Shown here: one piece after another, positions 7,270 to 32,395 of the stretch
How positions within the stretch are numbered: position 1 is the stretch's first letter
Layout: each line of letters opens with the position of its first letter
Assembly (NCBI GenBank): GCA_947491475.1
Contig: CANLKN010000021.1
Coordinates: forward strand, 1 to 44,927
Source: Akkermansiaceae bacterium
GTDB taxonomy: Bacteria; Verrucomicrobiota; Verrucomicrobiia; Verrucomicrobiales; Akkermansiaceae
Reading direction: 5' to 3'
DNA length: 44,927 nt
Notes under the pieces: generated by a model
Database searches by the model: none
Told to the model about the DNA's origin: nothing
What the model saw: the letters and a program-made list of their open reading frames with translations, nothing else
Program-made: the position numbers and the translations under genes

Positions 7270-7300
7270 GACGGCATCCGCAATCAGGATTCCGCAACTT

Positions 7301-10300
7301 ATGAGGATGAAGATTACGAATGACGCGACGATCCGTGGCTGCGCGGCACGCTGGCTCCACCCGCTTCTTTCCGCATGGGTCTCTGCGGTCATTTTCAGCA
7401 GTTCATTCGTGGCGGCCGCACCTTCGCTTTTGAGCGAGGAGTTTGCGACACCACCGATGAAGGCGCGCCCGTGGACATTCTGGTGGTTCCAAGGTGGATA
7501 CGGCAACAAGGACGGCATGGCCAAGGATATGGCCGCCATGCGCGAGAAGGGCATCGGCGGAGTGCTGCACATGCAGACCAACAACACAACCGGCCTGCCA
7601 CTGCCTTCAGAGCCCCAGATGCTCGGACCCGAGTGGGCCGATTGGTTCGGCGAGGCCGCCCGGCTTGCGCAGAGCGCCGGCATGACCTTCAGCGCAAGCA
7701 TTGTGGATGGCTGGGCGTTTGGCGGCAATTGGGTGGGCAAGGAGGATGCGGCCAAAATGCTGGTATGTTCCGAACTGCAAGTCGATGGCTCCACCGACAT
7801 GAGCCAAGCCCTGCCGATGCCATTCAACAGGCTCGGCGTTTACCACGATGTGGCCGTGATCGCCTTCCCGGAGCGGCCGACCCGCGCGCTGACACCGGCA
7901 TCCGCCATCGGCAGCCATACCGACAAGGGCTATTGCGACGAGGAAAACTGGCCGGCCATCCATGCTGCGGACAACGACCCGGACACTTTCTGGCGAACCT
8001 CCAGCGCACCAAGCGCCGCCAGCCCCGTTTGGATCCAGCATGCCTATTCACAGCCGCTGAACGCCGTGGCGGTTTACCTGAAAGGCATGCCCGGCGGTGG
8101 CCTTCGTGAAGGTGAGCTTCAGGTGTCTGAAGACGGCAGGAATTTCCGGCCGGTCACAAAAATCAGCATGGAGCCGGGAGAGGAAAAGCAGGTTGCCATT
8201 CCCGATACACACGGCCGCCATTTCAGGCTGTGGATCACATCGGCCCATTGCCAGGATGTCAGGCTGGCGGAGTTCCAACTGCTCCGGCAGGGCGATCAAC
8301 CGATCGTGCGCCAGGGCATCAAATGCTGGGATTACAAGTCGGGCAACCGCGGCATCTGGAATTACAAGTCAAAGAACGGCGGCGTTGTGATCAGTGTCGC
8401 GATGGATGATGTGAATCCGTTTCACCAACAATATGACTTGCAGAGCAGCGAGGTGATCGACCTCAGCAAATTCCTGCGGGCTGATGGCCGATTGGATTGG
8501 AAGGCACCCTCCGGACGCTGGACCATCATGCGCTTCGGCTGGACGACCATCGGACAGCACGCGCGCATGTCGTCCGGCGGCGGCTACGAGGTGGATGTCC
8601 TGAGCACCAAAGGTGCCGACCTGATGTTCGACAACGCGGCGGTTGGTATGTTGAAGGCCACCGCAAAGACGGCGCCGGGTGCGATGAAAGTCTTTCACAC
8701 CGATAGCTGGGAAATCGGAGCCGATGTGCAAGGCCAGCAACCCACCTGGACACCGGACTTCCGGGAGCAGTTCCGGAAGCGCCGGGGCTACGACCTGCTC
8801 CCGCTGCTTCCTGCGATGGCGAGGCGCATCGTGGATGACAGTGAGACCACGGAGAGGTTCCTGACCGACTATCGCGCCACCATTGCCGATCTGATTGCGG
8901 ACTACTATGGGCAACTCCAACACCGGGCGCACCAAACCCAAACCATGCTGAATCCGGAATCGGGATACGGCAGCTATCCAACGCCGCATCTCGACGGGCT
9001 TAAAGTTTTCGGACGCGCCGATCTGCCAATGGCGGAAATCTCACACAATGACACGGTGGAGAATTTCTCCAGCGCCATCACATCCGGTGCCATTCCCAGT
9101 TCGTTCTCGACCTGCGACGTGCTGCGCACCGCAGCTTCCGGCGCGCGCATCTACGGCCGCCAGATCGTGCAGGCGGAAACCTTGACTTATCATCCCTGGC
9201 TGGGGCAGGTCACCGCTCCCGACCGATACCGGAAGACACTCAATTACTGCTTTGCCAATGGCTTGAACTCCGCGGTGATCCACAAGTATGTGCACCAGCC
9301 GTTTGAATACAAACCGGGGCTCGAAGACTACGGAATCTTCAGCCGTCACCATACATGGTGGCCGATGGCCGAGGGCTTGTTGGGATACATCGGGCGCTGC
9401 CAGTATCTTCTGCAGCAAGTGCGCTTTGTGGCGGATATAGCCTACTTTGTGGGCGAAGGTTCTTCCCGCTACGTGACCGGCAAGGCATATCTTGATCCGT
9501 CTTTGCCGCCGGGATGCGACTATGACGGAATGAATGCCGAAGTGTTGCTGACCCGCCTGTCCGTCAGGGAAGGCCGGTGGTCGCTGCCGGACGGACTGGG
9601 CTACCGGTATCTTGTGCTCTCCCAACCCCACAGCTCGACCATGAGCGCCGAGGTGTTGGAGAAGATCTCCCAACTGGTGAAAGCAGGCGGCACCCTCATC
9701 GGCAAGCCGCCCACACGAACTCCAGGCCTGGCAAACCGGGATGCTGCCGACGCGGAACTCAAGGCAATGGCGAATAACCTATGGGGTGATGGCAACTCAC
9801 CTAATGGGATTCATGCCGTGGGCAAAGGCCGCGTGGTTTGTGGCTTCTCCATCGAGGAGTTGATGCAGCAGGACAATCTGGTCCCTGACATGGTGGCCAC
9901 CGTCGTCCCGCCAGACGGCAGTCCCACGGGCTCATCCGGTCCGGCCGAATCAGTCAGCCTCGACTGGATTCATCGGCAAACGAAGGATACAGACATCTAT
10001 TTCGTGGCCAACCCGTCTAACAAGCCGCTGGATTTGCAACTCGCCCTGCGCGTGACCGGCAAGGTGCCGGAACTTTTCGATCCGCTCACAGGAAAGGCCG
10101 GCGTGCTTCCGAATTACTCGATCCAATCAGAGCGGACGATCATTCCCATGCGTTTCGAGGCATACCAGGGATTGTTCATCGTCTTCAGTCAAAAGGCACC
10201 CATACAGGCCACTGCCAAAGCTGAACCGAACTTTCCCGATTTCAAACCGATCCTTGAAATCAAAGGCCCGTGGACCGTTCAGTTCGATCCCGCCTGGGTA

Positions 10301-10762
10301 GCGCCAGCACTGGGAGCCACAGGCGACTTGGCAAAAGGCCTGGTGGTGTTCGACCAACTCACCGACTGGACTCAACGTGCTGAACCCGGTTTGAAATACT
10401 ACTCCGGCATCGCCACCTACAGCACCAGCTTCAACCTGCCTGACGGACTGGCACCGGAAGTGATGTCGAAGCTGCGGCTCAGCCTCGGCGTGGTGAAGAA
10501 CATCGCCCGCGTGCGTTTGAACGGCAAAGACCAGGGCGTGACGTGGTGCGAGCCGTGGCAGGCGGATCTTGGCACGGCCTGCAAACCCGGCACCAACCAA
10601 CTGGAAATCGAGGTCGCAAACCTGTGGACCAACCGCGTGATCGGCGATGCCAGCCTGCCTCAGGACCAGCGCTTGACCAAATCCAACTTCCAGTTGAGTG
10701 CGGAAACACCGCTGTATTCATCGGGATTGTTGGGGCCGGTGCGGATACTGGCAGAGGAATAA
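7301..10762 (+). CDS. GH106-like alpha-L-rhamnosidase, secreted
   Basis: The start at 7301 is chosen because the element-to-ATG spacing and first codons (ATGAGGATGAAG) match three other genes here. The protein has 1153 residues. The signal peptide is about residues 17-40 (ending FVAAA). The GH106 core begins with RPWTFWWFQGGYGNKDGMAK and contains FHTDSWEIGAD (about 464-474) and LNPESGYGSYPTPHLDG (about 550). Their Glu residues are good candidates for the catalytic pair of this inverting calcium-dependent family. A discoidin-like (F5/8 C) domain is inserted at about 215-325 (DTFWRTSS, LQVSEDGRNFRPV, RHFRLWITS). A galactose-binding-like sandwich ends the protein (ARVRLNGKDQGVTWCEPWQ). It would release terminal L-rhamnose from a polysaccharide outside the cytoplasm. 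It is probably a single-gene unit. Confidence 0.8.
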   Translation: MRMKITNDATIRGCAARWLHPLLSAWVSAVIFSSSFVAAAPSLLSEEFATPPMKARPWTFWWFQGGYGNKDGMAKDMAAMREKGIGGVLHMQTNNTTGLPLPSEPQMLGPEWADWFGEAARLAQSAGMTFSASIVDGWAFGGNWVGKEDAAKMLVCSELQVDGSTDMSQALPMPFNRLGVYHDVAVIAFPERPTRALTPASAIGSHTDKGYCDEENWPAIHAADNDPDTFWRTSSAPSAASPVWIQHAYSQPLNAVAVYLKGMPGGGLREGELQVSEDGRNFRPVTKISMEPGEEKQVAIPDTHGRHFRLWITSAHCQDVRLAEFQLLRQGDQPIVRQGIKCWDYKSGNRGIWNYKSKNGGVVISVAMDDVNPFHQQYDLQSSEVIDLSKFLRADGRLDWKAPSGRWTIMRFGWTTIGQHARMSSGGGYEVDVLSTKGADLMFDNAAVGMLKATAKTAPGAMKVFHTDSWEIGADVQGQQPTWTPDFREQFRKRRGYDLLPLLPAMARRIVDDSETTERFLTDYRATIADLIADYYGQLQHRAHQTQTMLNPESGYGSYPTPHLDGLKVFGRADLPMAEISHNDTVENFSSAITSGAIPSSFSTCDVLRTAASGARIYGRQIVQAETLTYHPWLGQVTAPDRYRKTLNYCFANGLNSAVIHKYVHQPFEYKPGLEDYGIFSRHHTWWPMAEGLLGYIGRCQYLLQQVRFVADIAYFVGEGSSRYVTGKAYLDPSLPPGCDYDGMNAEVLLTRLSVREGRWSLPDGLGYRYLVLSQPHSSTMSAEVLEKISQLVKAGGTLIGKPPTRTPGLANRDAADAELKAMANNLWGDGNSPNGIHAVGKGRVVCGFSIEELMQQDNLVPDMVATVVPPDGSPTGSSGPAESVSLDWIHRQTKDTDIYFVANPSNKPLDLQLALRVTGKVPELFDPLTGKAGVLPNYSIQSERTIIPMRFEAYQGLFIVFSQKAPIQATAKAEPNFPDFKPILEIKGPWTVQFDPAWVAPALGATGDLAKGLVVFDQLTDWTQRAEPGLKYYSGIATYSTSFNLPDGLAPEVMSKLRLSLGVVKNIARVRLNGKDQGVTWCEPWQADLGTACKPGTNQLEIEVANLWTNRVIGDASLPQDQRLTKSNFQLSAETPLYSSGLLGPVRILAEE

Positions 10763-10807
10763 AGCACCTCCCGTCGCTGGGATTAGACTCACAAATTCAC
10801 CCTTAAC

Positions 10808-10830
10808 AGCACAAATCGTCTGTAAGAATC
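10808..10830 (+). promoter_or_regulatory. Shared upstream element, copy 2 (before beta-helix gene 1)
   Basis: AGCACAAATCGTCTGTAAGA plus three bases begins 56 nt before the ATG at 10864. It is preceded by TCACAAATTCACCCTTAAC, nearly the same flank as copy 1, and further upstream by the CCTCCCGTCG string also found before copy 3. Confidence 0.65.
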
Positions 10831-10863
10831 AGGCGGTTTTCATAAGTAGTATCCAGACCACTT

Positions 10864-12915
10864 ATGAAAATGATGAGAACAACGAATGACAGAGCGAACC
10901 GCGATGGCGGATGCCTGGGACGCCGAAGCCTTTTCGGACTTCTCTCCATGGTCGCGGCGGGCGCTCTCGGCGTGGCGAATAGCAACGCCCAACAGGCGGG
11001 CACCAAGCCGGAGCACCACAGCGACGCGCATCTCCAGCGGGTCTTGAACTGGACTGACGCCGAACACCAGGCCGCCTCGGAGGCGGCGCGAAAACTGCAG
11101 GCGGATCTCGACGCCGCGATTGCCGCGAAGGCTCAATCTTTCCGCATTCCACCCGGCGATTACACCGAATGGATGGCTCCGGGACAACCCGGGCACCGCT
11201 GCATCCTCAGTGTCATGGGAGCGGAGAACATGCACATCGACGCCACCGGAGTGACCTTCTGGACCACCGGAGACCAACGCGCATGCGCTGCGGTGTTTGA
11301 CGGCTGCAAGAACGTGACGGTGAGCGGCCTCACCACCGACATGATCAAATCTCCATTTGTCCAGGGAGTCGTCTCGCAGATCATCCCCGACGGATGTTCT
11401 CCTGGAAACGACAAGATCATCATCGATCTCGAAAAAGGATTCTCAACCATCCCAGGTGGCGTCGGCCGCACCTGGCACATGCGCCGCGATGGCAGCGTGA
11501 CGGCCTACCCCGGAAAACTCAATCCGATCCATGACAGCAGCTTGCCCCCCGGCAAGGCGGCGTGGATTTATCGCGGGAAGTCCGCGGGGGACGTTGAGAT
11601 CGGCGACCGCCTCTCCTTTCACCACATGAACGGCAGCGGCGGAGTGGTGATGATCAACTGCGGCGGCATGAATTTCACGGATTTGACGGTCTTTTCGTGC
11701 GGCTCATTCTGTGTCTGGGAAATGGGTGAGCGCTCGCCGGGAGGAAATACCTACACGCGGATGCGGATCATCCCGCGCCCCGGCTCCACCCGGATCGGGG
11801 TGGGTGCGACCGACGGGTTTCATTCCTACAACCAGCACAAAGGGCCGACGCTCATCGACTGTGAGATTGCGCGAACTCACGATGACGGCATCAACATCCA
11901 CGGCCACATCAATGTGGTGGTCGATGTGCTGCCCGACGGGCGTCATGTCCTGGCGAGCATCCACGCTCGGGATTATGACATCGGCACCGAGTTGATCCTG
12001 CGCCAGGCACCGGCCATGAAGCCGCTGGGCGCGGCGAAGGTGACTGCTTGGGAGCCGTTTGACAAAGCCGAGGGGCTCAAGCTCTACGAGCGGATGCGCG
12101 AGCGCTACAAGCAGGAGTTCGGCACCCCCATCCGCGACGTGATCGTGCCTGAGTTCAATGTGGTCTCCTTTGACCGCCCCACGGAGCTCGCGGAACTCGA
12201 TATCGCCATCTCCCAGGAATACTGCGGGCGGGGAGCCCGGATCACCAATCTGTTTGTCCACGATGGCTGCAACCGCGGGGTCTTTGTCTTGGGTCCCGAT
12301 TCCATCATCGAAAACAGCCGCTTTGAAAATATCAGCTTCGGCGGTCTCGGTCTCGCCACCGATGTGACCGAGTTCCTTTCCGGCGGCATTCCGAACAACA
12401 CAAAAATCCTGGGAAACACGTTTGTGAACTGCGGAACGCAAAACTTCGGCGGTGAGTTTGCCGACGGCGTGATCTGGGCGATGTGGGGCGCTATCTCGCT
12501 CTCGCCCTGCCTGCCGCCGTTCCATCAGGAAGCCTTCCTGCACCTCACTCCCCACATCCTTTACGAAAACATCGAGATCCGCGGCAACCGGATCATCGAC
12601 ACCCAGGGCCTGCCGATCTTCATCGGCAACAGCCGCGGCGTGACCGTCGCCGACAACGTGATCATCAGGCCGTTTCAGGCAACACCCGAAAAGCTGCGCT
12701 TCCTCGATCTGACCCGGCCCGGCGTGATCGAGCAAAAATTCGCCCCGCCGGTGCCAGCGGAGCTGCTGCCCGTGCTGCGCGAGCCGTTTTACGGGATCTT
12801 CATTTCCGCCAGCGATGAGGTCACCCTCACCGGAAACCGTGTAGAGGAAGCGCCGCCGTTCTTCAAGGGCCTGCTCGGCGTCGGGCCATGGAACGGAAAG
12901 ATCCACGTCCCATGA
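10864..12915 (+). CDS. Secreted right-handed parallel beta-helix protein (polysaccharide lyase/hydrolase fold), copy 1
   Basis: The 683-residue protein starts at an ATG whose first codons align with GH106 (TTND/KITND). A twin-arginine-like signal follows (CLGRRSLFGLLSMVAAGALG, about 19-38), suggesting Tat export. The body is a run of short beta-helix coils rich in Asn/Gly turns, e.g. NMHIDATGVTFW, GCKNVTVSGLTTDM, THDDGINIHGHINVVVDV, ENIEIRGNRIIDTQGLPIFI, NSRGVTVADNVIIR and DEVTLTGNRVEEAP. It resembles pectate-lyase/GH28/GH110-type folds, but no catalytic set can be assigned with certainty. It is closely related, also at the DNA level, to the gene at 30346. It heads a unit with the sialidase-fold gene. 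Confidence 0.78.
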   Translation: MKMMRTTNDRANRDGGCLGRRSLFGLLSMVAAGALGVANSNAQQAGTKPEHHSDAHLQRVLNWTDAEHQAASEAARKLQADLDAAIAAKAQSFRIPPGDYTEWMAPGQPGHRCILSVMGAENMHIDATGVTFWTTGDQRACAAVFDGCKNVTVSGLTTDMIKSPFVQGVVSQIIPDGCSPGNDKIIIDLEKGFSTIPGGVGRTWHMRRDGSVTAYPGKLNPIHDSSLPPGKAAWIYRGKSAGDVEIGDRLSFHHMNGSGGVVMINCGGMNFTDLTVFSCGSFCVWEMGERSPGGNTYTRMRIIPRPGSTRIGVGATDGFHSYNQHKGPTLIDCEIARTHDDGINIHGHINVVVDVLPDGRHVLASIHARDYDIGTELILRQAPAMKPLGAAKVTAWEPFDKAEGLKLYERMRERYKQEFGTPIRDVIVPEFNVVSFDRPTELAELDIAISQEYCGRGARITNLFVHDGCNRGVFVLGPDSIIENSRFENISFGGLGLATDVTEFLSGGIPNNTKILGNTFVNCGTQNFGGEFADGVIWAMWGAISLSPCLPPFHQEAFLHLTPHILYENIEIRGNRIIDTQGLPIFIGNSRGVTVADNVIIRPFQATPEKLRFLDLTRPGVIEQKFAPPVPAELLPVLREPFYGIFISASDEVTLTGNRVEEAPPFFKGLLGVGPWNGKIHVP

Positions 12916-14767: not shown

Positions 14768-14936
14768 TGCGCCGGAAGTTGCGGCCAACTTGTGCAGCAA
14801 GCCCGGAGGTCCGGTTCCCGAGGGATGGCTGCCACATCTTGTGCGCGAGGCGCCATTCGACACGGGGGAAGTGCTGGTGAGGTGCGACACGATCAAGATG
14901 CTTGCCGATGCGACACATGGCCTACCGATTGATGTC
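14768..14936 (+). other. Unrecognised non-coding or relic stretch after the sialidase-fold gene
   Basis: Between the sialidase-fold stop and the beta-helix remnant there is an open plus frame with PGGPVPEGWLPHL and FDTGEVLVRCDTIKMLADAT. It could be the 3' end of another lost gene; no family is recognised and it has no plausible start of its own. Confidence 0.35.
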
Positions 14937-15110
14937 CATCTTGCAGTGCCAACTGAGCTGCCACCCCTCCTGCGCGAAGCATTCTACGGAATCTTCGTCT
15001 CCGCCAGTGAGGACGTGACCCTCACGGGCAACCGGGTGGAAGAGGCACCGGCCAACTTCAAGGGGCTGCTCGGCATCGGGCCATGGAACACGAACATCCG
15101 CGGGCAATGA
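14937..15110 (+). pseudogene. Orphan 3' end of a beta-helix gene
   Basis: The translation reads ELPPLLREAFYGIFVSASED, VTLTGNRVEEAPANFKGLLG and IGPWNTNIRGQ before a stop. This is the last ~55 residues of the beta-helix proteins at 10864 and 30346, with a different final heptapeptide from either. No gene body precedes it. It sits just upstream of the third promoter cassette. Confidence 0.85.
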
Positions 15111-15154
15111 ATGCCTCCCGTCGGCCTTCCGCCGGCCTCAAAAGAACCGTAAAT

Positions 15155-15177
15155 AGCACATATCGCCGGTAGAATCG
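15155..15177 (+). promoter_or_regulatory. Shared upstream element, copy 3 (before the GH116 operon)
   Basis: AGCACATATCGCCGGTAGAA plus three bases begins 53 nt before the ATG at 15208. The wider flank (CCTCCCGTCGG, CTCAAAAGAACCGTAAAT, then GCTAGCAT and ATGAGGAAT) matches copy 4 best. It presumably drives the long operon from 15208 to 30236. Confidence 0.65.
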
Positions 15178-15207
15178 GATGCGCCCTCCCGCTAGCATGG
15201 CGGCAGA

Positions 15208-15267
15208 ATGAGGAATAAAATATCGAGCAACGCAGCGGGCTGTGACGATGGCTGCTTGGGGCGCCGG
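15208..15267 (+). pseudogene. Orphan 5' end of a beta-helix gene (20 codons)
   Basis: After the shared element come 20 codons beginning MRNKISS and ending GCDDGCLGRR. These correspond to the N-terminus of the beta-helix protein at 10864 (ending NRDGGCLGRR). The similarity stops just where the Tat signal would continue. The frame runs on openly into the GH116-like gene, so a chimeric start here is possible. Confidence 0.65.
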
Positions 15268-15283
15268 ATCATGCAAGCCAAGC

Positions 15284-15325
15284 GGTCTGGGGGAGCGGGT
15301 GATCCAGGCGGCGAAAGCAAAATGA
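15284..15325 (+). pseudogene. Orphan 3' end of a GH116-like gene
   Basis: The bases encode GLGERVIQAAKAK and a stop, the C-terminal tail of the GH116-like proteins ending at 19305, 22483 and 27529, in a different frame from the downstream gene. Its TGA overlaps ATG 15322. Together with the 5' remnant at 15208 it marks a deletion junction. Confidence 0.8.
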
Positions 15326-18300
15326 TACTAATGGAACCGAAACTCAAACTCGCCACCTCGCTACTATGTCCTTTAATCCCGAAAACGGCGATTTCGAAAT
15401 GGGTTCCCCATTCCGCTACAGGAATCGCGGTTTTCGGGTTAATCTTCGCCCTGCTGAATGGGCTGCCGTTGAGCCGGGCCGACCAAGTCGCGGGCCGGGT
15501 GCTGGATGCGCCGCTGCCGTATCCCGATGGCTCGATCCGCTTTCATGTGCTGCCGGCTGGCGTAGTGCAGCGCGAGCCAGATTTCAAAGGCGGCTCCGCT
15601 GGTGGGTCCCGCGCAACCACGAATGCCTTCACCGATCATTTTGACGGCCCCCGCGATGCCCGCTGGGTGGATGTGGAGGGCCAGACCGAAGCCCGTGACG
15701 GCGTGCTGCGCAGCGTGAGCGATGGCGGAGTGACGATTGTTAACGGCCTTGTGGACGAACGGGCCAAGGTGCGGGTGCGGGCGGAGAAACAGCTCCAGTT
15801 CGGCATCGTGCTGCGCTACGAAAACAATGACAACTACGTCCTGGCGTTTTTCGAGCCGACGCAAAAAATTATCGCGGTGCATGAGCGGAAGAACGGCAGT
15901 TGGGGGCCGCATGTCACCGCGACGAAAATCGAGGGGGTGGCCGACGGCCCGGTCACGCTGGAGGCTGAGATTGCGGGGCCGGATCTGAAGCTGGTGCTCC
16001 GTGACAGCCAGGGGGGGACGTGGCAGGCGGCCTGCAAGCTGGGCACTTTTCTGCAGCCGGGTGCGGTGGGCATCTATTGCGATCCGGCCTCCGCCAAGGG
16101 CGCGCAGGAGTTTGATGACTTCGAGGCGGAGGGTTCCCTGGCGCAGGAAGCGGTCTTTGACCCGGCCAAGTCCGGCTTTGTGGCCTTGCCCGCGGGATCG
16201 CCAAGCCGGCCGTTGGTGCTGTTTCAGGAGAATTTCGACAGTGGCAAGTCGGGTTCGATGCCGGCGGTCATCGGTGGTGCCCAAGTGGTGGATGGACAGT
16301 TGCGGTTGAGCGGTGCCCAGGCTGTGGCGCTGGCCCAGGGCGTGCAACAAAAGGACGGATCGGTGAGTGTGACGGGAGATGCCGGCCTGCAATTCGGCGT
16401 GGTGCTGCGTTATCAGGACGCCGACAACTATCTGCTGGCGTTCTACTCGCCGGCCCAGAAAACCATCGGCTGGCATGAGCGGCGTAACGGTAATTTCGGC
16501 CCATGGGTGGCCGCGCGCGCCGTTCCCGAGCTCAAGTCCAAACGCGTGCGGTTGACGGCGGTGGTGGAGGGCGGCCGGATTCGCTCGCTGCTCACGGATG
16601 ACGAGGGCAACGCCTTTGTCTGCGCTGGCAAAGTCGAGCACCTCAAAGAGGCGGGCAGAGTCGGGGTTTACTTTGACACCGCCGCTGGACCGGGCGAACA
16701 AAAAGTGGATGATTTTGTGGCCAGCGGCCGGGGTGCCGTGGTTCAGGATGATGCCGTGCAGGTGGTTGTGCCGGCGAGCGTTCGCGGCGACGGCTTTGTG
16801 TGGAATCTCGGCGAGCAGGTTCAAGTAGAAGGCGCGCCTGCCGATTCCATCTGCGGCGAGGCGAAACTCAAAGCCATCGCGGTCAAATCCGCGGCGGACC
16901 TGACTTCCCCCGGGCAACAGCCAGAGCGTTTGTTTCCCACCCGCGCACCTTCGAGGGATTGGGTGCGCTTTCCTTCACCCGGCTTCAAGAACCCGGTCAC
17001 CGGCGTGATTTATCGCATGGCGGATCCGGTGGTGTGCGGCGTGGCGCTGGGCGGTTTGGACACCGGTTGCTTGGATCTTGAGTCCAGCGGGCTTTGGGGC
17101 TATTCTACCTTGTTTAACAGCCATCTGCCCCGCTCGGGGCCGATGAACGAGCCCGCCCTGGGATTGAGCGTCGGTGGGCGCACTTGGGTTTTGTGCAATC
17201 CCAAGGCAACGAAGGCTCACTTCGTGGGCACATTAATGGCCAACACGCTGCCCGGAGATGATCCCAGGCATATCGCCCCAGGCCCATTGGAGCTGAACGG
17301 AGTTTCGACGCCCCAAGAAATTCATTACCACGGCCACTATCCCATGGCCGATATGGAGTTTGAAACCGACGCGCCGGTGTCTGTGGGGATGCGCGCGTGG
17401 TCGCCGTTCCTGCCGGGAGACGAGGTGGGTTCGATGATGCCGGCGCTGTTCATGGAGGTGCATTTGCGCAACGAGTCGGGCCAGCGCCAGAGCGGCTCGG
17501 TGGCGGTGAATTTCCCCGGCCCACTGCCGGCGGAGGCGGATACGGTGACGTTTCAGCGCCAGGAGCGGGTGGAGGGGGAATTGCGGGGGCTGCAAGTCAG
17601 CGGCCGGCGCGCCACCTACGTGCTGGGGGCGATAGGCGAGCCGCGCGTCCGCACCGGGGCGGGCCTCGGCACGAACCCCGAGGCGTGGGCCCGGATTCAG
17701 ACCAGCCTGCCGACGGCCGGCACCAACCAGTCCGGCGGGTCTGCGGCGGTGGATTTCGATCTGGCGGCGGGCGAGCAGAAAGTCGTTCGCTTCGTGGCCA
17801 GTTGGTATTCGCCGCAGTGGTATGGCGGGGGAAGCTGGGGCTTCACCAAGGAGCCCAAGGATGGCGTGTGGGGACAGCCGCTGGGCCAGTTGGGCACCTA
17901 CACGCACATGTATGCGAAGCATTGGCCGGATGCCTGGCAGACGGCGCAGGCCGCCGCCCAGGGATATGATGGTTTGCAGCAGCGCGTGCTCGGCTGGCAG
18001 GCGGAGGTTTTCAACGACCTGACGCTGCCCGCCTGGCTGCGCGAGGGTTTGGTAAATGTGCTCTACCTCATCACCGAGACCGGCCTGTGGACGCAAAAGG
18101 ACGCCAGCTTCAAGCCGGAATTCAAGGAAGAGGACGGCCTCTTTGGCATGTGCGAGAGTCCGCGGGCGTGTCCCCAGATTGAATGCATTCCGTGCTCGTT
18201 CTACGGAAACATTCCCGTGGTGTATTTCTTTCCCAAGGCGGCGCTGTCCACCCTGCGCGGCTACAAAAATTATCAGGACGCCGAGGGCGCCCCGCCGTGG

Positions 18301-19305: not shown

Positions 19306-19324
19306 CCTTTTCAAAACTAACCAA

Positions 19325-22483: not shown

Positions 22484-22515
22484 AACCGAAACAAATGAAA
22501 ACGAAACAAATGAAA
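22480..22515 (+). repeat. Tandem 15-bp repeat containing three in-frame ATGs
   Basis: The unit GAAACAAATGAAA recurs with 15-nt period at the junction of the GH116-like and GH95-like genes, placing ATGs at 22480, 22495 and 22510. The last ATG aligns with the starts of the neighbouring genes (MKxVSG). It looks like slippage expansion of the start region. Confidence 0.7.
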
Positions 22516-24978
22516 GCCGTATCCGGCTTTGGCCGGGGGCAAAGGATGTTGGGCCTGGCCCTGGCAATGCTCGTGTCACCAATGGCTGTCGGCTTCGCGG
22601 CGGCCACGCCAGTGGCGGAACCTGAAACCATCCCAGGCACGCGGATGCGCGTGGATTGGCAGGCACTCGTCTCGGGGCACAATCTCAATCTGCCCAAACT
22701 GCCGGATAACTTCAACGATTCCCTGCGGATAGGGAACGGTGACATCGGCGTGGCGGTTTACGCGGTTCCCGAGTGTTTGGTTCTCTCGGTAGCCAAGAAC
22801 GACTTGCTGGATTATCGCTGTTTGGAGCCGGGTAATTTCACTCTGCCGCCCACCGCCAAGCCGGCGGGGGCGATCCGTTTTAGAAACGCCAAGCCCGGAA
22901 ACCCCACAGCCCAGGTCCGTCATGATATCTGGAATGGGGAGATCGATGTCCGCTCCGAAAATGCGGCATCGCCTGAAATCAGAACCTTGGTTTCAAAAAA
23001 ACGCAATTTGATCGTAACGGAATACCAACCGGCCAACGGGCAGGACTTCGATATCGAGATCGCACGCAACAAGGACAACAGCACCAGCAAGATCACGAAT
23101 ACGCCGGAACTGGGAGTTGAGGGACGGGATTTCTGGGTTCGGTATCAGTTTCCTCCCGACCCGGATACCTACCCCGGCGGTTTTGAATATGTGATGTATG
23201 GCCGGGTCATCGGGGGCGAGGTGACCAAGGCAGATGTGGTGAGCGATTTCACAAATGTGCAGCAAACGCCGGAGACTATATCGAGCTTTGCCCGGATGCG
23301 GATGAAGTCGTCAACTGCGGTGACGGTTCTGGTCGCGGTGGTCACCACGCGTGACAGCGCGAATCCCATGCAGAAAGCCAAGTCGGAGGTTGACAGCGCG
23401 CAGAGCGTCGGGCTCGCGCAGTTGCGACTGGAGCATGCCGGGTTGTGGCATGAATTCTGGAGGAAATCCTTCGTCCAACTGGCCGACCGGGATTTTGTGA
23501 ACCAGCAGTGGTTTCTGAGCCTGTATCATCTGGCCTGCATCACACGACCGGGAGCCATCGCCCCCGGTATGTTTGGTCCGTGGATATGGGAGGACTTCCC
23601 CGGCTGGGGTAATGACAACCATTGGGACTACAATATGCAATCGACCATCTGGGGCGCATTCTCGAGCAACCATCATGAGCTGACTGAGGCATATCACCAG
23701 GCCGCCTTCGACCTGCTGCCCGCTGCGAAACTGGGCACAGCAGAGTATGGTAATTTCCCCGGGGCCAAGTACCCCGTTTTGTCGTGGCCCAGGAATTATA
23801 CCCAAATTGCCGTTTCCAGGAAGTACGGAGGTCCGTTTGTAAATGGCTTTGTCGCCCAGCCGCTCTGGTGGTATTATCAATATAGTCAAGACAAGACGTT
23901 TCTCCGTGAGAAAGGGTATCCGGTTATTAAGGCGTGTGCTGAGTTCTATGAGCACTTCGTGCAGCGCGCACCGGACGGCAAATACGACATGCCGCCCACC
24001 GAGGTTTGGGACTTGGTTTCTCAATCAGTCGGAAAAATAGCCGATTCCAGGAACAGCACCATAGATCTGGCATTTGCAAAGATGCTATTCAGGATGGCGT
24101 CTGCGGCGAGCAAGGTTTTGGGCGTAGATGCCGACAAGTGTGGTGTCTGGGATAATATTGCGAACAACTTGCGAGACTATCCTACGGCAGTTATTGATGG
24201 GAAAGATTTCAAGCCAGTCGATCGCCGAGCGGCGGGAGCAATGCCGCTTTACACCTCCCGCAGCTTTCCATCCGGTAAAGTGCTGGTTGCCTACGAAAAC
24301 TATCCCGTCGTCGAATACAATGTTCCGCCCTGGACGATGCCGATTTTCCCGGGGGGCGATATCGGCCTGCACAGTCTGCCGAAAGAACAAGAACTGGCCC
24401 TCCGGACATTGGAGATTACTCCCTACTATCTTTGGGATGACTTAGTGATGCTTTCCATGGCGTGGATACGGCTTGGGCACGACCAGCTTGATGTCGCCGA
24501 AAAACACGCGCGCTCACTAGTCCGTACCAATGGAATGCAATCCTATCCAAGAGATTGCTGGCCGGCTCGATTTGGAATTTTCACACACTTGCTGGGCTGG
24601 CCCATTGTGGTCAATGAGAGCCTGGTTCAGAGCTACACCGGTCAGATTCGCGTGTCCCCGGTGAAGCTGAAGAACGCCGCCCGTTTCGCCCGCTTGCGGG
24701 CCGAGGGCGCGTTCCTGCTCAGCGGCGAAATCCAGAGTGGCGGCAAGGTGTCGTATCTGGCCATCACCAGCGAAGTCGGGCGGCCATGCAATCTGGTGCG
24801 GCCTTGGGATGGCCCGGTGCGGGTGCGCCGCCTGGATTCGATGGCGGAGGTGACGGTGGCGGAGAAGGACGGCGTGCTGACGTTCCCTACAACCGCCGGA
24901 GCCACCTACGTGCTGGACCGTCCTGATGCGCCATGGGAATCACAACCGGTCACCGACATCGCGCAAACTTCCAAATAG
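22480..24978 (+). CDS. GH95-like (clan GH-L type) glycoside hydrolase, secreted
   Basis: There are 832 residues from ATG 22480, although ATG 22510 gives the N-terminus MKAVSGFGRG shared with neighbouring genes. A signal peptide follows (QRMLGLALAMLVSPMAVGFA). The N-terminal sandwich has FNDSLRIGNGDIGVAVYAVP, the GNG-xxG opening of GH95/DUF5703-type proteins. The helical barrel includes WGNDNHWDYNMQSTIWGAFS, GFVAQPLWWYYQYSQD and PTEVWDLVSQS. A small C-terminal sandwich follows (KLKNAARFARLRAEGAFLLS). Known relatives remove alpha-L-fucose or alpha-L-galactose by inversion; which sugar applies here cannot be said. Unlike its neighbours it lacks the GLVERVIQAAK tail. The stretch from about 23800 to 24640 looks richer in A/T than its surroundings. 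Confidence 0.65.
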   Translation: MKPKQMKTKQMKAVSGFGRGQRMLGLALAMLVSPMAVGFAAATPVAEPETIPGTRMRVDWQALVSGHNLNLPKLPDNFNDSLRIGNGDIGVAVYAVPECLVLSVAKNDLLDYRCLEPGNFTLPPTAKPAGAIRFRNAKPGNPTAQVRHDIWNGEIDVRSENAASPEIRTLVSKKRNLIVTEYQPANGQDFDIEIARNKDNSTSKITNTPELGVEGRDFWVRYQFPPDPDTYPGGFEYVMYGRVIGGEVTKADVVSDFTNVQQTPETISSFARMRMKSSTAVTVLVAVVTTRDSANPMQKAKSEVDSAQSVGLAQLRLEHAGLWHEFWRKSFVQLADRDFVNQQWFLSLYHLACITRPGAIAPGMFGPWIWEDFPGWGNDNHWDYNMQSTIWGAFSSNHHELTEAYHQAAFDLLPAAKLGTAEYGNFPGAKYPVLSWPRNYTQIAVSRKYGGPFVNGFVAQPLWWYYQYSQDKTFLREKGYPVIKACAEFYEHFVQRAPDGKYDMPPTEVWDLVSQSVGKIADSRNSTIDLAFAKMLFRMASAASKVLGVDADKCGVWDNIANNLRDYPTAVIDGKDFKPVDRRAAGAMPLYTSRSFPSGKVLVAYENYPVVEYNVPPWTMPIFPGGDIGLHSLPKEQELALRTLEITPYYLWDDLVMLSMAWIRLGHDQLDVAEKHARSLVRTNGMQSYPRDCWPARFGIFTHLLGWPIVVNESLVQSYTGQIRVSPVKLKNAARFARLRAEGAFLLSGEIQSGGKVSYLAITSEVGRPCNLVRPWDGPVRVRRLDSMAEVTVAEKDGVLTFPTTAGATYVLDRPDAPWESQPVTDIAQTSK

Positions 24979-25042
24979 TTCAATGAACTCATGATCGGGT
25001 ATTGCGGCATCCGCCACTGACTAACTCTCAAAACCAAACCAA

Positions 25043-27529
25043 ATGAACCAAATGAAAACTGTTTCCGGCTATGGCCGGGGTCGGGTGATGATGAGTCTGC
25101 TGCTGGCGCTGGCCTCCAGCCTTACCATTCAGGCGGAATCCCCTGCGGGCAGGCTGTTCCCACCTGGTCTGCCCACCAACCAATGGCAACAATTTCCCGC
25201 CGTTGGTTACGACCAGCCCGTGAGCGGCTCAATCTACCATGCCGAACCCCGCCTCTGGTGCGGGATGCCGCTTGGTGGCCTGGCCACCGGTTGTCTCGAC
25301 ATTGAAAATGACGGCACTCTCGGTTATTCCACGATCTTTTCCCACGTCTGGGGACACGACGCCGGCAGTGATGGCAGCGTCAGGTGGCGAGACATCGTGT
25401 GGGCGCAGAAAAACGGTCAGCTTGAGGACCGATTCATCGACGATCCGAGCCGGGGGAAAATGAATGCGCCGTTCCTCGGGCTTTCCGTGGAAGGTCAATC
25501 GTGCGTGCTGTCCACGGCCGCCGTGGGCGACGTCAAAAAGGCTTCCAAGCTCGAATACTGGGGACACTATCCGATCCTGGACGTCGAATATGAACAGGAT
25601 CTACCGGTGCAGGCGGGCCTGCGTTGTTTTTCACCCTTCCTGCCGGGCGAGTCGAATGAGTCGAATGTTCCCGGCGCGGTGTTCGAGGTGCGGTTGCGGA
25701 ACACGCAGGACCGGCCGGTTTCCGGCCGACTGGCGTTCAGTTTCCCCGGTCCGAGGCCCCGCGAGGCGAACGGCCGACCCTTTACCCGGCAATTGGTGGG
25801 GAAGAACGGCTCTGCCTATCAAGGGGCATACATCGCCACCAGCGAGCGGATTGGCTATGTCCTGGCGGCACTCGGTGGCGAAAAGGTGACTTGCGGCAAA
25901 GGTTTGGGAACGAATGCGGCGGATTGGATGAACCTCGGTCATGTCTTGCCGGCATTCGAAGCCGCAAGCGATTCGCCGGACGGCAGCGCGAGCGTGGGCG
26001 TGGATTTCTCTCTGCCCGCATTGGGGACGAAAACCGTTCGCTTTGTGCTGGCATGGTATGCCCCGCAGTGGTCCACGGATTTTCCCTACGACGGCGTGGT
26101 CGATCGCTGGTTCACCAAGATGTATTCCACCCGGTTCCGCGATGCCCCGGCCGTAGCGGATTATCTTGCGAAAAATCATGAATCACTGCTCCGGCGGATC
26201 ATCGCATGGCAATCGGTGATATACGGCGAGAAATCGCTGCCGCCCTGGCTGCGGGATGGACTGGTGAACACGTTGCACCTGTTTCCGGAGTGCGGCTTCT
26301 GGGCCGCGGCGGAACCGCCGCTAGGCCATGATTTCGCGCCCAACGGTCTTTACTCACTGGTGGAAAGCACCGTCGCCGACGGCCAGCAATCCTGCATCCC
26401 GTGCGACTGGTATGGCAATCTGCCTCTGGTCTATTTCTATCCCGATCTGGCGCGCACCACTCTGCGTGCTTACGCCAAATTCATGCGGGAGGATGGCGCG
26501 GTGCCATTCACCCTGGGGCGTGGGCTGGATCTGCTGGCCGAAACACAGCCCGACCGCCAGCGCACGCTGAATGGTTGCTGTTATGTGGACCTCGTGGACC
26601 GGCTATGGCAGCGAACCGGCGACAGGTCCGTTCTGAAAGAGTTCTATCCGTCCGTGAAACGCTCGGTGGAATACATGATGAGTCTCGTTCCCGGTCCTGC
26701 AGGAGTCATCAGCACGGCGGGCGATCAGTGGTATGAATCCATGGCCTGGCCGGGCATGTCCAGTCACGTGGGGGGCGTGCGCCTGGCCACCCTGCGGATT
26801 GCCGAACGCATGGCCAAGCAGCAGGGCGATACCGCCTTCGCCGCCAAGTGTGTCGATTGGCATGCTCAAGGAAGCCGCATGATGGAGGAATTCCTGTGGG
26901 CCGGGAGCCACTACCTGATTTACAACGACGAGAAGAACAGCAACGCCGCCTACCGCCACCAGACGGAGCAGAAGGGTGCCGGCTTCATTGCCGACGTCAA
27001 CCAAGGCTCCGGTGAGAAATCCGATCTCGTGCTCTCCTATCAACTGGACGGAGAATGGATGGCGCGCTTTCACGGCTTGCCCGGCGTGTTTCCGAAGGAG
27101 CGCGTGAAACAAACGCTGACGACCATTGAGCGGCTGAATGCGCCCCTCACCACCGCCGGTTTGCTGGTGGTGGTTGGCGCGGATGGCAAACCCACTTCGT
27201 TTGGCGGCCGCATGGGCAGTCTGTCGAGCATGCCCGCCTCGGCCTTCATCACCGCGATGAGTTATATCTATGAAGGTGAGCGGGAGACCGGCTTGCGCGT
27301 CGCTCATGACGCGCTCAACGAGATGGTGAACGTCCAGGGAATGACGTGGGACATGCCCAACATCATGGTCGGCACCAAGGAGAAAAAACAGCGCGTCTAT
27401 GGCACCGATTACTACCAGTGCCTGAGTTTGTGGGGACTGCCTGCAGCCTTGGCGGGGGAAGATATCGCCACGACGAGCCGCCAGGGCGGCCTGGTGGAGC
27501 GGGTGATCCAGGCGGCAAAAGCCAAGTGA
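25043..27529 (+). CDS. GH116/DUF608-like glycoside hydrolase, secreted
   Basis: The 828-residue protein is the shortest of the three related enzymes here. It has a signal peptide (MKTVSGYGRGRVMMSLLLA, from the second ATG at 25052, to about residue 31) and goes straight into the GH116 sandwich (WCGMPLGGLATGCLDIENDG at about 70), without extra N-terminal modules. The catalytic domain has LVNTLHLFPECGFWAA (about 407), QSCIPCDWYGNLPLVYFYP, DQWYESMAWPGM (Glu about 565), LSYQLDGEWMARFHGLPG and DYYQCLSLWGLPAALAGED. It ends in GLVERVIQAAKAK. It follows the GH95-like gene by 64 nt. The start context ACCAAATGAACCAAATGAAA has no Shine-Dalgarno sequence. It is presumably a periplasmic or outer-surface exo-glycosidase. 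Confidence 0.78.
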   Translation: MNQMKTVSGYGRGRVMMSLLLALASSLTIQAESPAGRLFPPGLPTNQWQQFPAVGYDQPVSGSIYHAEPRLWCGMPLGGLATGCLDIENDGTLGYSTIFSHVWGHDAGSDGSVRWRDIVWAQKNGQLEDRFIDDPSRGKMNAPFLGLSVEGQSCVLSTAAVGDVKKASKLEYWGHYPILDVEYEQDLPVQAGLRCFSPFLPGESNESNVPGAVFEVRLRNTQDRPVSGRLAFSFPGPRPREANGRPFTRQLVGKNGSAYQGAYIATSERIGYVLAALGGEKVTCGKGLGTNAADWMNLGHVLPAFEAASDSPDGSASVGVDFSLPALGTKTVRFVLAWYAPQWSTDFPYDGVVDRWFTKMYSTRFRDAPAVADYLAKNHESLLRRIIAWQSVIYGEKSLPPWLRDGLVNTLHLFPECGFWAAAEPPLGHDFAPNGLYSLVESTVADGQQSCIPCDWYGNLPLVYFYPDLARTTLRAYAKFMREDGAVPFTLGRGLDLLAETQPDRQRTLNGCCYVDLVDRLWQRTGDRSVLKEFYPSVKRSVEYMMSLVPGPAGVISTAGDQWYESMAWPGMSSHVGGVRLATLRIAERMAKQQGDTAFAAKCVDWHAQGSRMMEEFLWAGSHYLIYNDEKNSNAAYRHQTEQKGAGFIADVNQGSGEKSDLVLSYQLDGEWMARFHGLPGVFPKERVKQTLTTIERLNAPLTTAGLLVVVGADGKPTSFGGRMGSLSSMPASAFITAMSYIYEGERETGLRVAHDALNEMVNVQGMTWDMPNIMVGTKEKKQRVYGTDYYQCLSLWGLPAALAGEDIATTSRQGGLVERVIQAAKAK

Positions 27530-27543
27530 TCTAACTAATAAAA

Positions 27544-28602: not shown

Positions 28603-28649
28603 CACCGGAACATTATCAGACCGAACACAACCTCCTTTCCAATCCATCC

Positions 28650-28929
28650 TAACATAACGATTCCCACACCCATCGTCAGCCCCTTCCAGGCCCCCCCCGC
28701 GAAGCTGCGCTACCTCGACCTGACCCGGCCCGGCGTGATCGAGACAAAATTCGCCCCGCCGGTCGCGCCGGAGATGTTGCCCCTCCTGCGCGAGCCGTTC
28801 TACGGGATCTTTGTCTCCGCCAGCGAGGACGTGACCCTCACGGGCAACCGTGTGGAAGAGGCCCCGGCCCACTTCAAGGGTCTGCTCGGCGTCGGGCCAT
28901 GGAACACGAACATCCGCGGGCAGGAATGA
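28650..28929 (+). pseudogene. Orphan 3' end of a beta-helix gene (about 90 codons)
   Basis: The frame reads PIVSPFQAPPAKLRYLDLTR, PGVIETKFAPPVAPEMLPLL, then REPFYGIFVSASEDVTLTG and GPWNTNIRGQE before the stop. This is the C-terminal part of the beta-helix proteins at 10864 and 30346. It has no start codon of its own at the right place and no body. Similarity fades just upstream of about 28650, leaving some 45 unassigned bases after the previous gene. Confidence 0.85.
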
Positions 28930-28973
28930 TCACGTCCCCACACGCCTATGCAAAGCGCATCAGAACCATACTT

Positions 28974-30236: not shown

Positions 30237-30244
30237 AAACCAGA

Positions 30245-30263
30245 AATGCCTCCTGCAGGCATT
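30245..30263 (+). terminator. Perfect short hairpin after the GH32/43-like gene
   Basis: AATGCCT-CCTGC-AGGCATT can form a 7-bp stem with a 5-nt loop directly after the stop codon at 30236. A U-run is not obvious. It could end the long operon or be part of the upstream cassette of the next gene. Confidence 0.4.
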
Positions 30264-30289
30264 CCTCCAGTTACAAAAAAGCCGTTAAT

Positions 30290-30312
30290 AGCACACATCG
30301 ACTGTAGAATTG
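30290..30312 (+). promoter_or_regulatory. Shared upstream element, copy 4 (before beta-helix gene 2)
   Basis: AGCACACATCGACTGTAGAA plus three bases begins 56 nt before the ATG at 30346. The flanks TTACAAAAAAGCCGTTAAT upstream and GGCTAGCAT downstream match copy 3. Confidence 0.65.
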
Positions 30313-30345
30313 GCCGCCTCCGCCGGCTAGCATATTGCTAACAAT

Positions 30346-32385
30346 ATGAGGAATATCATCTCGACGAACGAACGGGTTTCGCGGCGCATTTTTTTGATCA
30401 TGGCAAGCGCCATCGGCTTGGTGGGCTGCGGCGACAACAAAGTGGACAATCAACAAGCGGACGCCATACCAGATCACCACAGCGATGCGCATCTCCAGCG
30501 GGTCTTGAACTGGACCGACGCCGAACACCAGGCAGCCTCGGATGCGGCGCGAAAACTGCAGGAGGATCTCAACGCCGCGATCGCCGCGAAGGCTGAATCT
30601 TTCCGCATTCCCCCCGGCGATTACACCGAATGGATGGCCCCTGGGCAAAGCGGACACCGCAGCGTCCTGAGTGTCATGGGCGCGGAGAACATGCACATCG
30701 ATGCCACCGGGGCGACGTTCTGGACCTCCGGAGACCAGCCCGGCGCAGCGGTCGTTTTTGCCGAGTGCAAAAACAGCACGGTCGTCGGACTCACCGCAGA
30801 CATGATCAAGTCCCCGTTTGTGCAGGGGGTTGTGTCCCAGATCATCCCCGATGGATGTTCTCCGGGAAATGACAAGATCCTCATTGATCTCGAAAAGGGA
30901 TTCTCAGCGCAGGCACGACCGTCGGGCGTCGGCCGCACCTGGCACATGCGTCGTGACGGCACCGCCGTGGCGTATCCCGGCAAGCTCGGGCCGATTGCCG
31001 ACGCCGAGTTGCCGCCCGGCAAGGCGGCGTGGATGTATCGCGGGACGGCTGCGGGGGACGTTGAGATTGGCGACCGTCTATCCGTCCATCACATGAACGG
31101 CAGTGGCGGGGTGATAATGATCAATTGCGGCGGAATGAACTTCACGGATCTGACCGTCTTTTCCTCCGGACAATTCTGTGTCTGGGAGCAGGGGGTCCGC
31201 TCGCCGGGCGGAAATACCTACACGCGGATGAAAATCGTCCCGCGTCCCGGATCCACCCGCGTCGGTGTGGGCGCGGCCGACGGCTTCCATTCCTTCAATC
31301 AGCACAAAGGACCGACACTCATCAACTGCGAGATCGCGCGGACCCACGACGACGGCATTAACATCCACGGCTTCATCAACGTGGTTGTCGAGGTGCTTCC
31401 CGATGGCCGCTGTGTCCTGGCAAGCATCCATGGCCGGGATTATGATATAGGCACCGAGCTCCTCCTGCGTCAGGCACCGGCGATGAAACCGCTGGGCTCG
31501 GCCAAGGTGACCGCTTGGGAGCCGTTCGACAAGGCCGAGGGGCTCAAGCTCTACGAGCGGATGCAGGAGCGCTACAAGCATGAGTTCGCGACCCCCATCC
31601 GCGGGATAATCTATCCCGAATTCTGCGTGGTTTCCTTTGACCGCCCGACGGAGCTCGGAGCCCTCGATATGGCCATCTCCCAGGAATACACCGGACGCGG
31701 CACCCGGATCTCAAACCTCCACATCCACGACGGCTGCAACCGCGGCATGTTGCTCAAAGCACCCGACTCGATCATTGAAGGCAGCCGCTTCGAAAACATC
31801 AGCTTTGGCGGCCTCGCGCTGGCTACCGGAGTGACGGCGTATCTCGAAGGCGGTATTCCCAATAACACAAAAATCCTCGGCAACACCTTAGTCAACTGCG
31901 GAACGCAAACCTTCGGCGGCGAGTTTGCCGACGGCGTGATCTGGGCGATGTGGGGCGCGATCTCGCTCTCTCCCTGCCTCCCGCCGTTTCACCAGGAAGC
32001 CTTCCTGCACCTCACTCCCCAAATCCTTTACGAAAATATCGAGATCCGTGGCAACCGGATCATCGACACCCAGGGCCTGCCAATCTTCATCGGGAACAGC
32101 CGCGGCGTGACCGTCGCCGACAATGTCATTATCCGCCCATTCCAGGCAACACCCGAAAAGCTCCGCTTCCTCGACCTGACCCGGCCCGGAGTGATCGAGC
32201 AAAAATTCGCCCCGCCGATCGCGCCGGAGTTGATATCCCTCCTCCGCGAACCCTTCTACGGGATCTTTGTCTCCGCCAGCGAGGACGTCACCCTCACCGG
32301 CAACCGGGTGGAAGAGGCTCCGGCCAACTTCAAGGGCCTGCTAGGCATCGGGCCATGGAACGGAAAAATCCACGCGCAGGAATGA
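30346..32385 (+). CDS. Secreted right-handed parallel beta-helix protein, copy 2 (Tat lipoprotein)
   Basis: The 679-residue protein is nearly identical over most of its length to the one at 10864, with long stretches of matching DNA (for example 31990-32200 against 12530-12740). It differs at the N-terminus. It has a twin-arginine motif (VSRRIFLIMASAIGLVGC) ending in a lipobox Cys at about residue 28, so it is probably exported folded by Tat and then lipidated. The helix coils include GGVIMINCGGMNFTDLTVFS, THDDGINIHGFINVVVEV and ENIEIRGNRIIDTQGLPIFI. It heads unit 4 and is followed 10 nt later by the GH36-like gene. It is likely a lyase or glycosidase of the target glycan; the active site is not assigned. 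Confidence 0.8.
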   Translation: MRNIISTNERVSRRIFLIMASAIGLVGCGDNKVDNQQADAIPDHHSDAHLQRVLNWTDAEHQAASDAARKLQEDLNAAIAAKAESFRIPPGDYTEWMAPGQSGHRSVLSVMGAENMHIDATGATFWTSGDQPGAAVVFAECKNSTVVGLTADMIKSPFVQGVVSQIIPDGCSPGNDKILIDLEKGFSAQARPSGVGRTWHMRRDGTAVAYPGKLGPIADAELPPGKAAWMYRGTAAGDVEIGDRLSVHHMNGSGGVIMINCGGMNFTDLTVFSSGQFCVWEQGVRSPGGNTYTRMKIVPRPGSTRVGVGAADGFHSFNQHKGPTLINCEIARTHDDGINIHGFINVVVEVLPDGRCVLASIHGRDYDIGTELLLRQAPAMKPLGSAKVTAWEPFDKAEGLKLYERMQERYKHEFATPIRGIIYPEFCVVSFDRPTELGALDMAISQEYTGRGTRISNLHIHDGCNRGMLLKAPDSIIEGSRFENISFGGLALATGVTAYLEGGIPNNTKILGNTLVNCGTQTFGGEFADGVIWAMWGAISLSPCLPPFHQEAFLHLTPQILYENIEIRGNRIIDTQGLPIFIGNSRGVTVADNVIIRPFQATPEKLRFLDLTRPGVIEQKFAPPIAPELISLLREPFYGIFVSASEDVTLTGNRVEEAPANFKGLLGIGPWNGKIHAQE

Positions 32386-32395
32386 TCGCTCTAAC

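Follow-up and report, generated by a model that had tools for sequence, protein, structure and literature searches.

The window analysed here is a 44,927-nucleotide contig (C21) of an Akkermansiaceae genome (G000; 3.89 Mb, 182 contigs), in which genes for secreted enzymes of unrelated families begin with similar DNA. We consider it probable that such chimeric secreted-enzyme genes arose by leader capture. A resident 5′ end, comprising the ribosome-binding region, start codon and a Sec or twin-arginine translocation (Tat) signal peptide, would be duplicated locally, sometimes bringing upstream DNA or the tail of the previous gene with it. An unrelated enzyme body would then join one copy through a crossover within the signal-peptide-coding DNA or immediately behind it, and the join would preserve expression and export. 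Signal-peptide DNA would suit such joins because its Leu/Ala codons make unrelated signal peptides similar at this point. Gene stubs in these loci would have been left behind by those duplications and deletions. Leaders were judged by eye from the n-region, hydrophobic core and AxA or RR motif, and are presumably functional. We infer that the recombination route was homeologous or micro-homologous crossover after local duplication, under selection for instant export.

A preliminary description of this DNA had pointed out that a GH95 gene shares its 5′ end with two genes of family GH116, here called GH116-2 (start at 19325) and GH116-3 (25052), and this was borne out. Self-blastn of the window paired 22499-22538, at the GH95 start, with 25041-25080 at the GH116-3 start (85% over 40 bp, E = 2e-5). 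Ungapped identity between these two genes, counted per 15 nt from −15 to +60, was 10, 12, 13, 8 and 10, a sum of 53/75. It fell to 3/15 in the next bin and to 2-5/15 beyond, a sharp drop at the end of the signal-peptide region, as had been anticipated. The corresponding counts for GH95 and GH116-2 were 11, 13, 9, 9 and 9 (51/75), and the GH116-2 and GH116-3 starts agreed at 47/75. One detail of the earlier account was wrong: the 19325 start reads MKTISGLGCCKLM, without GGCCGGGG. Pfam places the GH95 and GH116 bodies in separate families, and blastp of one against the other gave no match at E 1e-3; both families presumably have an (alpha/alpha)6 catalytic fold, and a very remote kinship is possible. 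The similarity between GH95 and GH116-2 also crosses the gene junction: 19012-19380 matched 22181-22565 at 67% (self-blastn), taking in the tail of the preceding GH116 gene, the spacer and the next leader. GH95 therefore occupies a slot in a GH116 tandem array.

These scores were compared with those of 37,950 pairs of genes with signal-peptide-like starts, drawn from 1.24 Mb sampled from the same genome, with the best score taken for each pair. The mean was 24.5/75 (standard deviation 4.1). Scores of 45 or more were found for neighbouring genes only (four pairs, all within 15 kb, two of them with homologous bodies). The gene caller used in the scan omitted GH95, whose scores come from the separate ungapped alignment. 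None of 3,741 pairs in a control genome (G004) reached 42.

Five relatives of the GH95 gene were found (L022-L026). Two of them, L022 and L025, are from lake metagenome bins and are 63% and 64% identical to the window gene. DNA similarity to the window began at L022 10114 (window 22590) and at L025 10041 (window 22597), near the expected mature N-terminus. Upstream, the two bodies carry other leaders, each common with an unrelated neighbour: a GH32 gene in L022 (8118-8224 = 9980-10086, 107 bp, 86%) and a GH42-like gene in L025 (9949-10029 = 16003-16083, 81 bp, 81%). Comparison of orthologous loci, which the preliminary description had proposed, thus found locus-specific predicted leaders on two orthologous GH95 bodies. 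Leader and body blocks were separated by 28 bp in L022, 12 bp in L025 and 25-52 bp in the window, where the leader blocks ended at 22538 (with GH116-3) and 22565 (with GH116-2). The genome of L022 (G111) has one leader on GH95, GH32 (two copies), GH127, melibiase, two bodies without a Pfam hit and one stub. A ~45-bp intergenic sequence at L022:9931-9975, found in at least 14 places in that genome, adjoins the leader and is separate from it.

A junction could be placed between relatives of both parents on contig C14 of G000. The melibiase gene at 14674-17208 was 83.2% identical in DNA, over 2,490 bp, to a melibiase gene on contig C19 (24859-27519), with the match confined to the part beyond about +27. 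Between −254 and +71 it matched its unrelated neighbour at C14:17205-21281 (LamG and GH2 domains) at 73% over 326 bp. Base by base, only the stretch from about +27 to +71, which covers the hydrophobic core and Ala-rich cleavage region, resembled both the C19 paralogue and the C14 neighbour, and the crossover would therefore lie there. The gene is an explicit chimera whose two parents both have relatives in this genome, and the overlap region shows why signal-peptide DNA serves as a convenient joint. Matches to this melibiase at E 1e-120 were found in 5 of 73 genomes of the genus, its own included.

A direction of transfer is suggested by contig C30, where a superoxide dismutase gene (27538-28278) and a cellulase-like gene (28341-29684), of unrelated Pfam families, have 141 bp in common at 82% around a Tat-like leader. 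The phenomenon is thus not confined to glycan enzymes. The dismutase was matched in 71 of the 73 genomes (E 1e-40) and the cellulase-like gene in one (E 1e-60). The best dismutase match began at query residue 1-7, leader included, in 52/73 genomes, the remainder being mostly a shorter paralogue. An RRxF leader stood on all 30 dismutase loci inspected. In the flanks scanned (628-1458 bp upstream), it occurred once in 28 of 29 relatives and in two full copies in G000 alone; one relative had a 35-bp internal repeat only. The two G000 leaders were sisters in a 31-row tree (support 97/75). Because the resident leader is widespread, the newcomer rare and the G000 leaders sisters, the dismutase is the likely leader donor and the cellulase-like gene the likely recipient.

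Near pairs of unrelated genes were surveyed using a codon-model gene caller, since a crude longest-open reading frame (ORF) caller had missed GH95 and real genes under long antisense ORFs. Segments of 300 bp at 5′ ends, mid-gene and 3′ ends of genes of at least 200 amino acids were compared, pairs whose bodies proved homologous by masked blastp (E 0.01) were removed, and in-frame matches within 15 kb were counted as near. The frame was allowed at either end of the match, alike for all three segment classes. Across G000, G111 and a further genome, G112, 14 of 6,401 near pairs matched in frame at their 5′ ends (G000 5/4,729; G111 5/581; G112 4/1,091; control G004 1/1,751), and none at mid-gene or 3′ ends in any of the four genomes. 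Far pairs (5′, mid-gene, 3′) numbered 3, 5 and 3 in G000, 18, 1 and 1 in G111, 1, 0 and 1 in G112, and 1, 0 and 0 in G004. When genes of at least 100 amino acids were admitted, near pairs in G000, G111, G112 and G004 were 6, 5, 4 and 1 at 5′ ends, 1, 0, 1 and 0 at mid-gene and 0 throughout at 3′ ends, giving 15, 2 and 0 for the first three genomes together. Sharing between unrelated bodies is start-anchored, with sharp junctions at the end of the predicted signal peptide.

Features of the window are collected in the table below; gene families were assigned by Pfam, for which 22 window ORFs were scanned. The GH106 ATG, read from the sequence, is 7301 or 7307. GH116-1 probably starts at 15322 or 15331, judging from in-frame ATGs. 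The cluster of glycan enzymes (GH106, three GH116, GH95, GH43/32-like and melibiase) with an AraC regulator matches a polysaccharide-utilisation-type locus; a SusC/SusD-like pair of the Bacteroidota type was not found among the scanned ORFs. The N-terminal region of GH116-2 (window 19400-19560; AETWDLARDW..NPNGVWSY) resembles, by eye, G000 C14:10118-14677 and 25024-29658 (AETWDLAKDF..NPSGPWFY), which suggests domain sharing between these loci. Elsewhere in the window, 462-1484 encodes a homologue of pentameric ligand-gated ion channels (PF02931/PF02932), here in a bacterium, and 39826-42426 a protein with a hydrazine-synthase-alpha middle domain, which adjoins a beta-propeller/di-haem peroxidase-like protein at 42454-44289.

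Table. Genes, shared 5′ ends and gene remnants in the window (positions of the whole stretch)
Feature	Position	Strand	Basis
AraC regulator gene	6095		Pfam
GH106 upstream DNA and first ~8 codons	7214..7324	+	Local alignment to 10775-10890; self-blastn
GH106 alpha-L-rhamnosidase gene	7301..10762	+	PF17132, E 5e-151; ORF listed 7268-10762 from GTG 7268
Beta-helix A upstream DNA and start	10775..10890	+	Self-blastn, local alignment
Beta-helix A gene	10864..12915	+	PF13229; 81% amino acid identity to beta-helix C
Beta-helix 3′ stub	14946..15110	+	77-92% to 12751-12915, 28780-28922, 32237-32378
Beta-helix upstream DNA and first codons (MRNKISS), stub	15110..15239	+	71% to 30245-30370; Smith-Waterman score 65, null maximum 33
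GH116 3′ stub (GGLVERVIQAAKAK tail) and spacer, within ORF called at 15208	15275..15343	+	81% to 22440-22507
GH116-1 gene (probable start)	15331..19305	+	PF12215/PF04685; ORF called from 15208
GH116-2 gene, MKTISGLG leader	19325..22483	+	Pfam GH116, leader alignment
GH95 translation start and signal peptide, shared block (−15 to +60)	22495..22569	+	53/75 with 25052, 51/75 with 19325
GH95 gene	ATG 22510	+	Pfam PF22124
GH95 leader/body junction zone	22539..22590	+	Blastn ends of leader and body blocks
GH95 body	22590..24978	+	PF22124; 70-71% in DNA to L022 and L025
GH116-3 matching leader block	25037..25111	+	Self-blastn, ungapped identity
GH116-3 gene	25052..27529	+	PF12215/PF04685; ORF listed from 25043
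Beta-helix 3′ stub	28672..28931	+	82-87% to 12661-12907 and 32132-32387; just upstream of GH43/GH32-like gene
GH43/GH32-like gene	start 28899		Pfam
Beta-helix C upstream DNA and start	30245..30376	+	Self-blastn, local alignment
Beta-helix C gene	30346..32385	+	Pfam, blast similarity to beta-helix A
Melibiase gene	start 32396		Pfam

The preliminary description had also assigned a common promoter, start and first codons to the GH106 and beta-helix genes. This was upheld in part. The GH106 start region aligned with that of beta-helix A with a score of 51, compared with a maximum of 25 in 300 shuffles, and 7214-7267 matched 10775-10828 at 78% (self-blastn). The common tract covers ~87 bp before the ATG at 7301 and about eight codons (MRMKITND / MKMMRTTND). 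The similarity ends ahead of the hydrophobic core, so the two genes share upstream DNA and first codons and no export signal. Between GH106 and beta-helix C the similarity was short and weak (score 29, reached by 1 of 300 shuffles). By eye, the starts of beta-helix A and C (10864-10990 and 30346-30451) differ, one being a Tat-like signal peptide and the other Tat lipoprotein-like; the proteins are more than 80% identical overall despite their different leaders. Beta-helix relatives were not confirmed in the searched genome contigs, viral contigs or plasmids, and in 98 other genomes only distant ones (26-28%) were found, in five. GH116-3 gave no match at E 1e-60 in 72 other genomes of the genus. 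The window trio therefore gave no direction of transfer. A 21-bp motif, AGCACANATNGNCNGTANNAA, lies at 7247-7267, 10808-10828, 15155-15175 and 30290-30310, upstream of GH106, beta-helix A, a scar at 15208 and beta-helix C, respectively. These are its only copies in the genome with 0-1 mismatches, two more having 2 mismatches, and the motif may be an operator for the AraC-type regulator encoded at 6095.

The ORF called at 15208 opens with a beta-helix 5′ stub (15110-15232, similar to 30245-30370), followed by the GH116 3′ stub, which is also 86-88% identical to 19262-19305 and 27486-27534. Its MRNKISS start, earlier taken for a working shared leader, belongs to this scar. The three GH116 genes are true paralogues, 53-57% identical in DNA over the whole aligned region, and their last ten aligned codons are alike at 28-29 of 30 nt. 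Over the last ~14 codons (GGLVERVIQAAKAK), DNA identity is 86-97% among 19261-19308, 22447-22480, 27485-27532 and the stub at 15282-15331, so exchange or conservation seems to extend to GH116 3′ ends. Debris was also found in L022, where a stub of the leader (5193-5324) runs directly into the 5′ stub of a GH78 gene (5323-5511) and this into a 3′ end of GH78 (from 5510), and stops break the reading frames. The window scars and this debris therefore point to loss of bodies while ends stay, and to repeated local duplication. Contrary to the earlier suggestion, the 5′ ends are not fixed: they have been duplicated and truncated, and persist as scars.

Several points weigh against leader capture. 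The window GH95 gene has no known parent, and the order of events there would be a reconstruction. Among its five relatives the leader comparison uses two; L023 and L024 lack a signal-peptide-like start in the ORF listing, and the start of L026 is ambiguous. The sister grouping of the C30 leaders has a Shimodaira-Hasegawa-like approximate likelihood ratio of only 75. In the survey, one of the 14 near pairs (G111 C106, 27 bp) lies away from any leader and another (15208/22480) is the scar, while the extra pair gained at 100 amino acids (C30 33936/34428) looks like true paralogues. The single near 5′ pair of control G004 (400 kb) lies at +165, outside any leader. Rates for G111 and G112 are inflated, as GH95 led to both genomes and the choice of 8 of the 18 G111 contigs followed matches in an earlier search; the sole unbiased sample is G000 outside C21, with two near pairs (C14 and C30). 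G112 has no start-anchored pair scoring at least 42, its aligned start codons differ, and its pairs come from blastn. Fragmented drafts make up three of the four genomes sampled. With the crude caller, pairs within 20 kb included two mid-gene and one 3′ in G000, and two 3′ in G004. The top two 3′ matches of G004 were strong (116 bp at 92%, 81 bp at 84%), and drop out because the codon-model caller calls no gene there. The G004 stretch in which crude ORFs share this 3′ DNA (C1:163225-172934), where the codon model calls almost no gene, is possibly a repeat array. Finally, the GH95/GH116-3, L022 and L025 pairs lose upstream similarity near −15, a pattern that short-leader copying would explain as well as body replacement does.

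Under such copying, an incoming gene would have arrived whole with its own leader, later overwritten by a neighbour's start and signal peptide via short-tract gene conversion. The blocks of GH95/GH116-3, L022 GH95/GH32 and L025 GH95/GH42, running from about −15 to the end of the signal peptide without upstream context, are as this account predicts, and the converging GH116 3′ tails suggest that short-tract exchange is possible. The shared tracts of C14 (−254 to +71) and of the 19325/22510 genes, however, include the 3′ end of the preceding gene, which is expected if a body entered an existing slot. Body replacement is therefore favoured for C14 and 22510, and we regard leader copying, the alternative that survives best, as unlikely overall.

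The preliminary description had envisaged gene bodies being swapped between fixed 5′ ends. Recombination joining unrelated bodies to the same 5′ end is retained from that proposal; the fixed ends are not, and a dedicated swapping system is unsupported. A cassette system driven by phase variation or a recombinase would account for the recurrence of both 5′ and 3′ gene ends in the window, but the leader changes from locus to locus and the stubs are either broken or no longer in frame. Among the 22 scanned ORFs there was no recombinase or transposase family, and between 7000 and 32500 there were no strong inverted repeats, only six weak pairs (18-29 nt, 72-89%; seed 12, minimum 18). The recombinase and strong flanking inverted repeats of site-specific or phase-variable switching were thus not seen in the ORFs and stretch scanned, and we consider such a system very improbable.

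Lower still in probability is an assembly or binning artefact, which might be feared with G000 in 182 contigs and G111 and G112 being lake metagenome bins. Differences of 8-33% separate the copies of leaders and stubs (3-14% for the short GH116 tails), so that most are not k-mer chimeras, the stubs bear private changes, and the pattern repeats in three genomes and several contigs. In addition, the downstream neighbour of the dismutase adjoins it in 3 of 29 relatives inspected. Chance or convergence, with signal peptides and A-rich start regions being alike within one genome, is even harder to credit. Compositional likeness does exist, as the null mean indicates, and may partly explain the weakest pairs (52-72 bp at 75-77%, G112). 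For the best pairs it is refuted: unrelated neighbours on C14, C21 and C30 scored 47-66/75, a level not reached in the control genome, and several cases share DNA upstream of the start too. Least probable of all is whole-gene duplication with bodies diverged past recognition behind leaders that stayed alike, which suits the three GH116 paralogues, but the partners are of unrelated Pfam families (dismutase/cellulase-like, GH95/GH32), leaders at 80-86% DNA identity are hard to reconcile with unrecognisable bodies, and the C14 body has its homologue on C19 at 83%. For the C14 and C30 pairs this reading is refuted.

Leader capture can be set beside known processes. Homology-facilitated illegitimate recombination, a proposed route that joins foreign DNA at a short similar stretch, is likened here as a possible mechanism only. 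In terminal reassortment, upstream regulatory DNA moves along with the N-terminus; in our cases shared upstream DNA reaches −254 on C14, about −40 on C30 and about −87 for GH106/beta-helix A, and the GH95/GH116-3 block starts at about −15. The term is traced to Stavrinides, Ma and Guttman 2006, as cited in excerpts of PMC6460904, which describe type III effectors with short similar N-terminal export signals on otherwise different protein families and a chimeric origin. As in the effectors of those excerpts, the genes studied here have a homologous N-terminal export signal on unrelated bodies. By inspection, however, the signals read as Sec/Tat signal peptides rather than type III secretion signals, the bacteria are presumably free-living, many of the partners lie near one another within a locus, and gene stubs go with them. 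Leader capture would be a Sec/Tat analogue of terminal reassortment, acting alike without being filed as a member. We read it as a further form of N-terminal reassortment and not as a dedicated switch.

Shared leaders have been described in other settings. In Schistosoma japonicum, PMC3434034 reports 27 distinct UniGene entries whose core promoters and signal sequences are similar, which it attributes to DNA-level duplication; that family, as presented there, is eukaryotic and dispersed with repetitive elements, and its genes have no homologue in other organisms. The spma locus of Mycoplasma agalactiae holds a similar-leader family in which, according to excerpts of PMC2824730, a lipobox follows the signal peptide and there are internal repeats, stretches of homology among the products and poly-G tracts; unlike the genes here, the products described there are not enzymes of unrelated families. 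Besides spma and the type III effectors, a partial literature search found no case of unrelated bacterial proteins with a common leader.

We put forward tentatively, and with more doubt than confidence, that signal-peptide DNA may be a recurrent recombination port in these genomes, at which stereotyped Leu/Ala codons would allow bodies to be spliced in frame behind a resident leader and newly acquired hydrolases to be expressed and exported at once, giving rise to locus-specific leader dialects. The acquisition of an export signal and expression by new bacterial enzymes is seldom seen directly. A single genome here offers a chimera with relatives of both parents as well as one likely donor-to-recipient leader transfer with direction, and the same pattern, with different leaders, is found in three genomes. 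If general, shared leaders would mark recent gene acquisition, and within glycan loci both start-site annotation and searches by homology would be misled by them.

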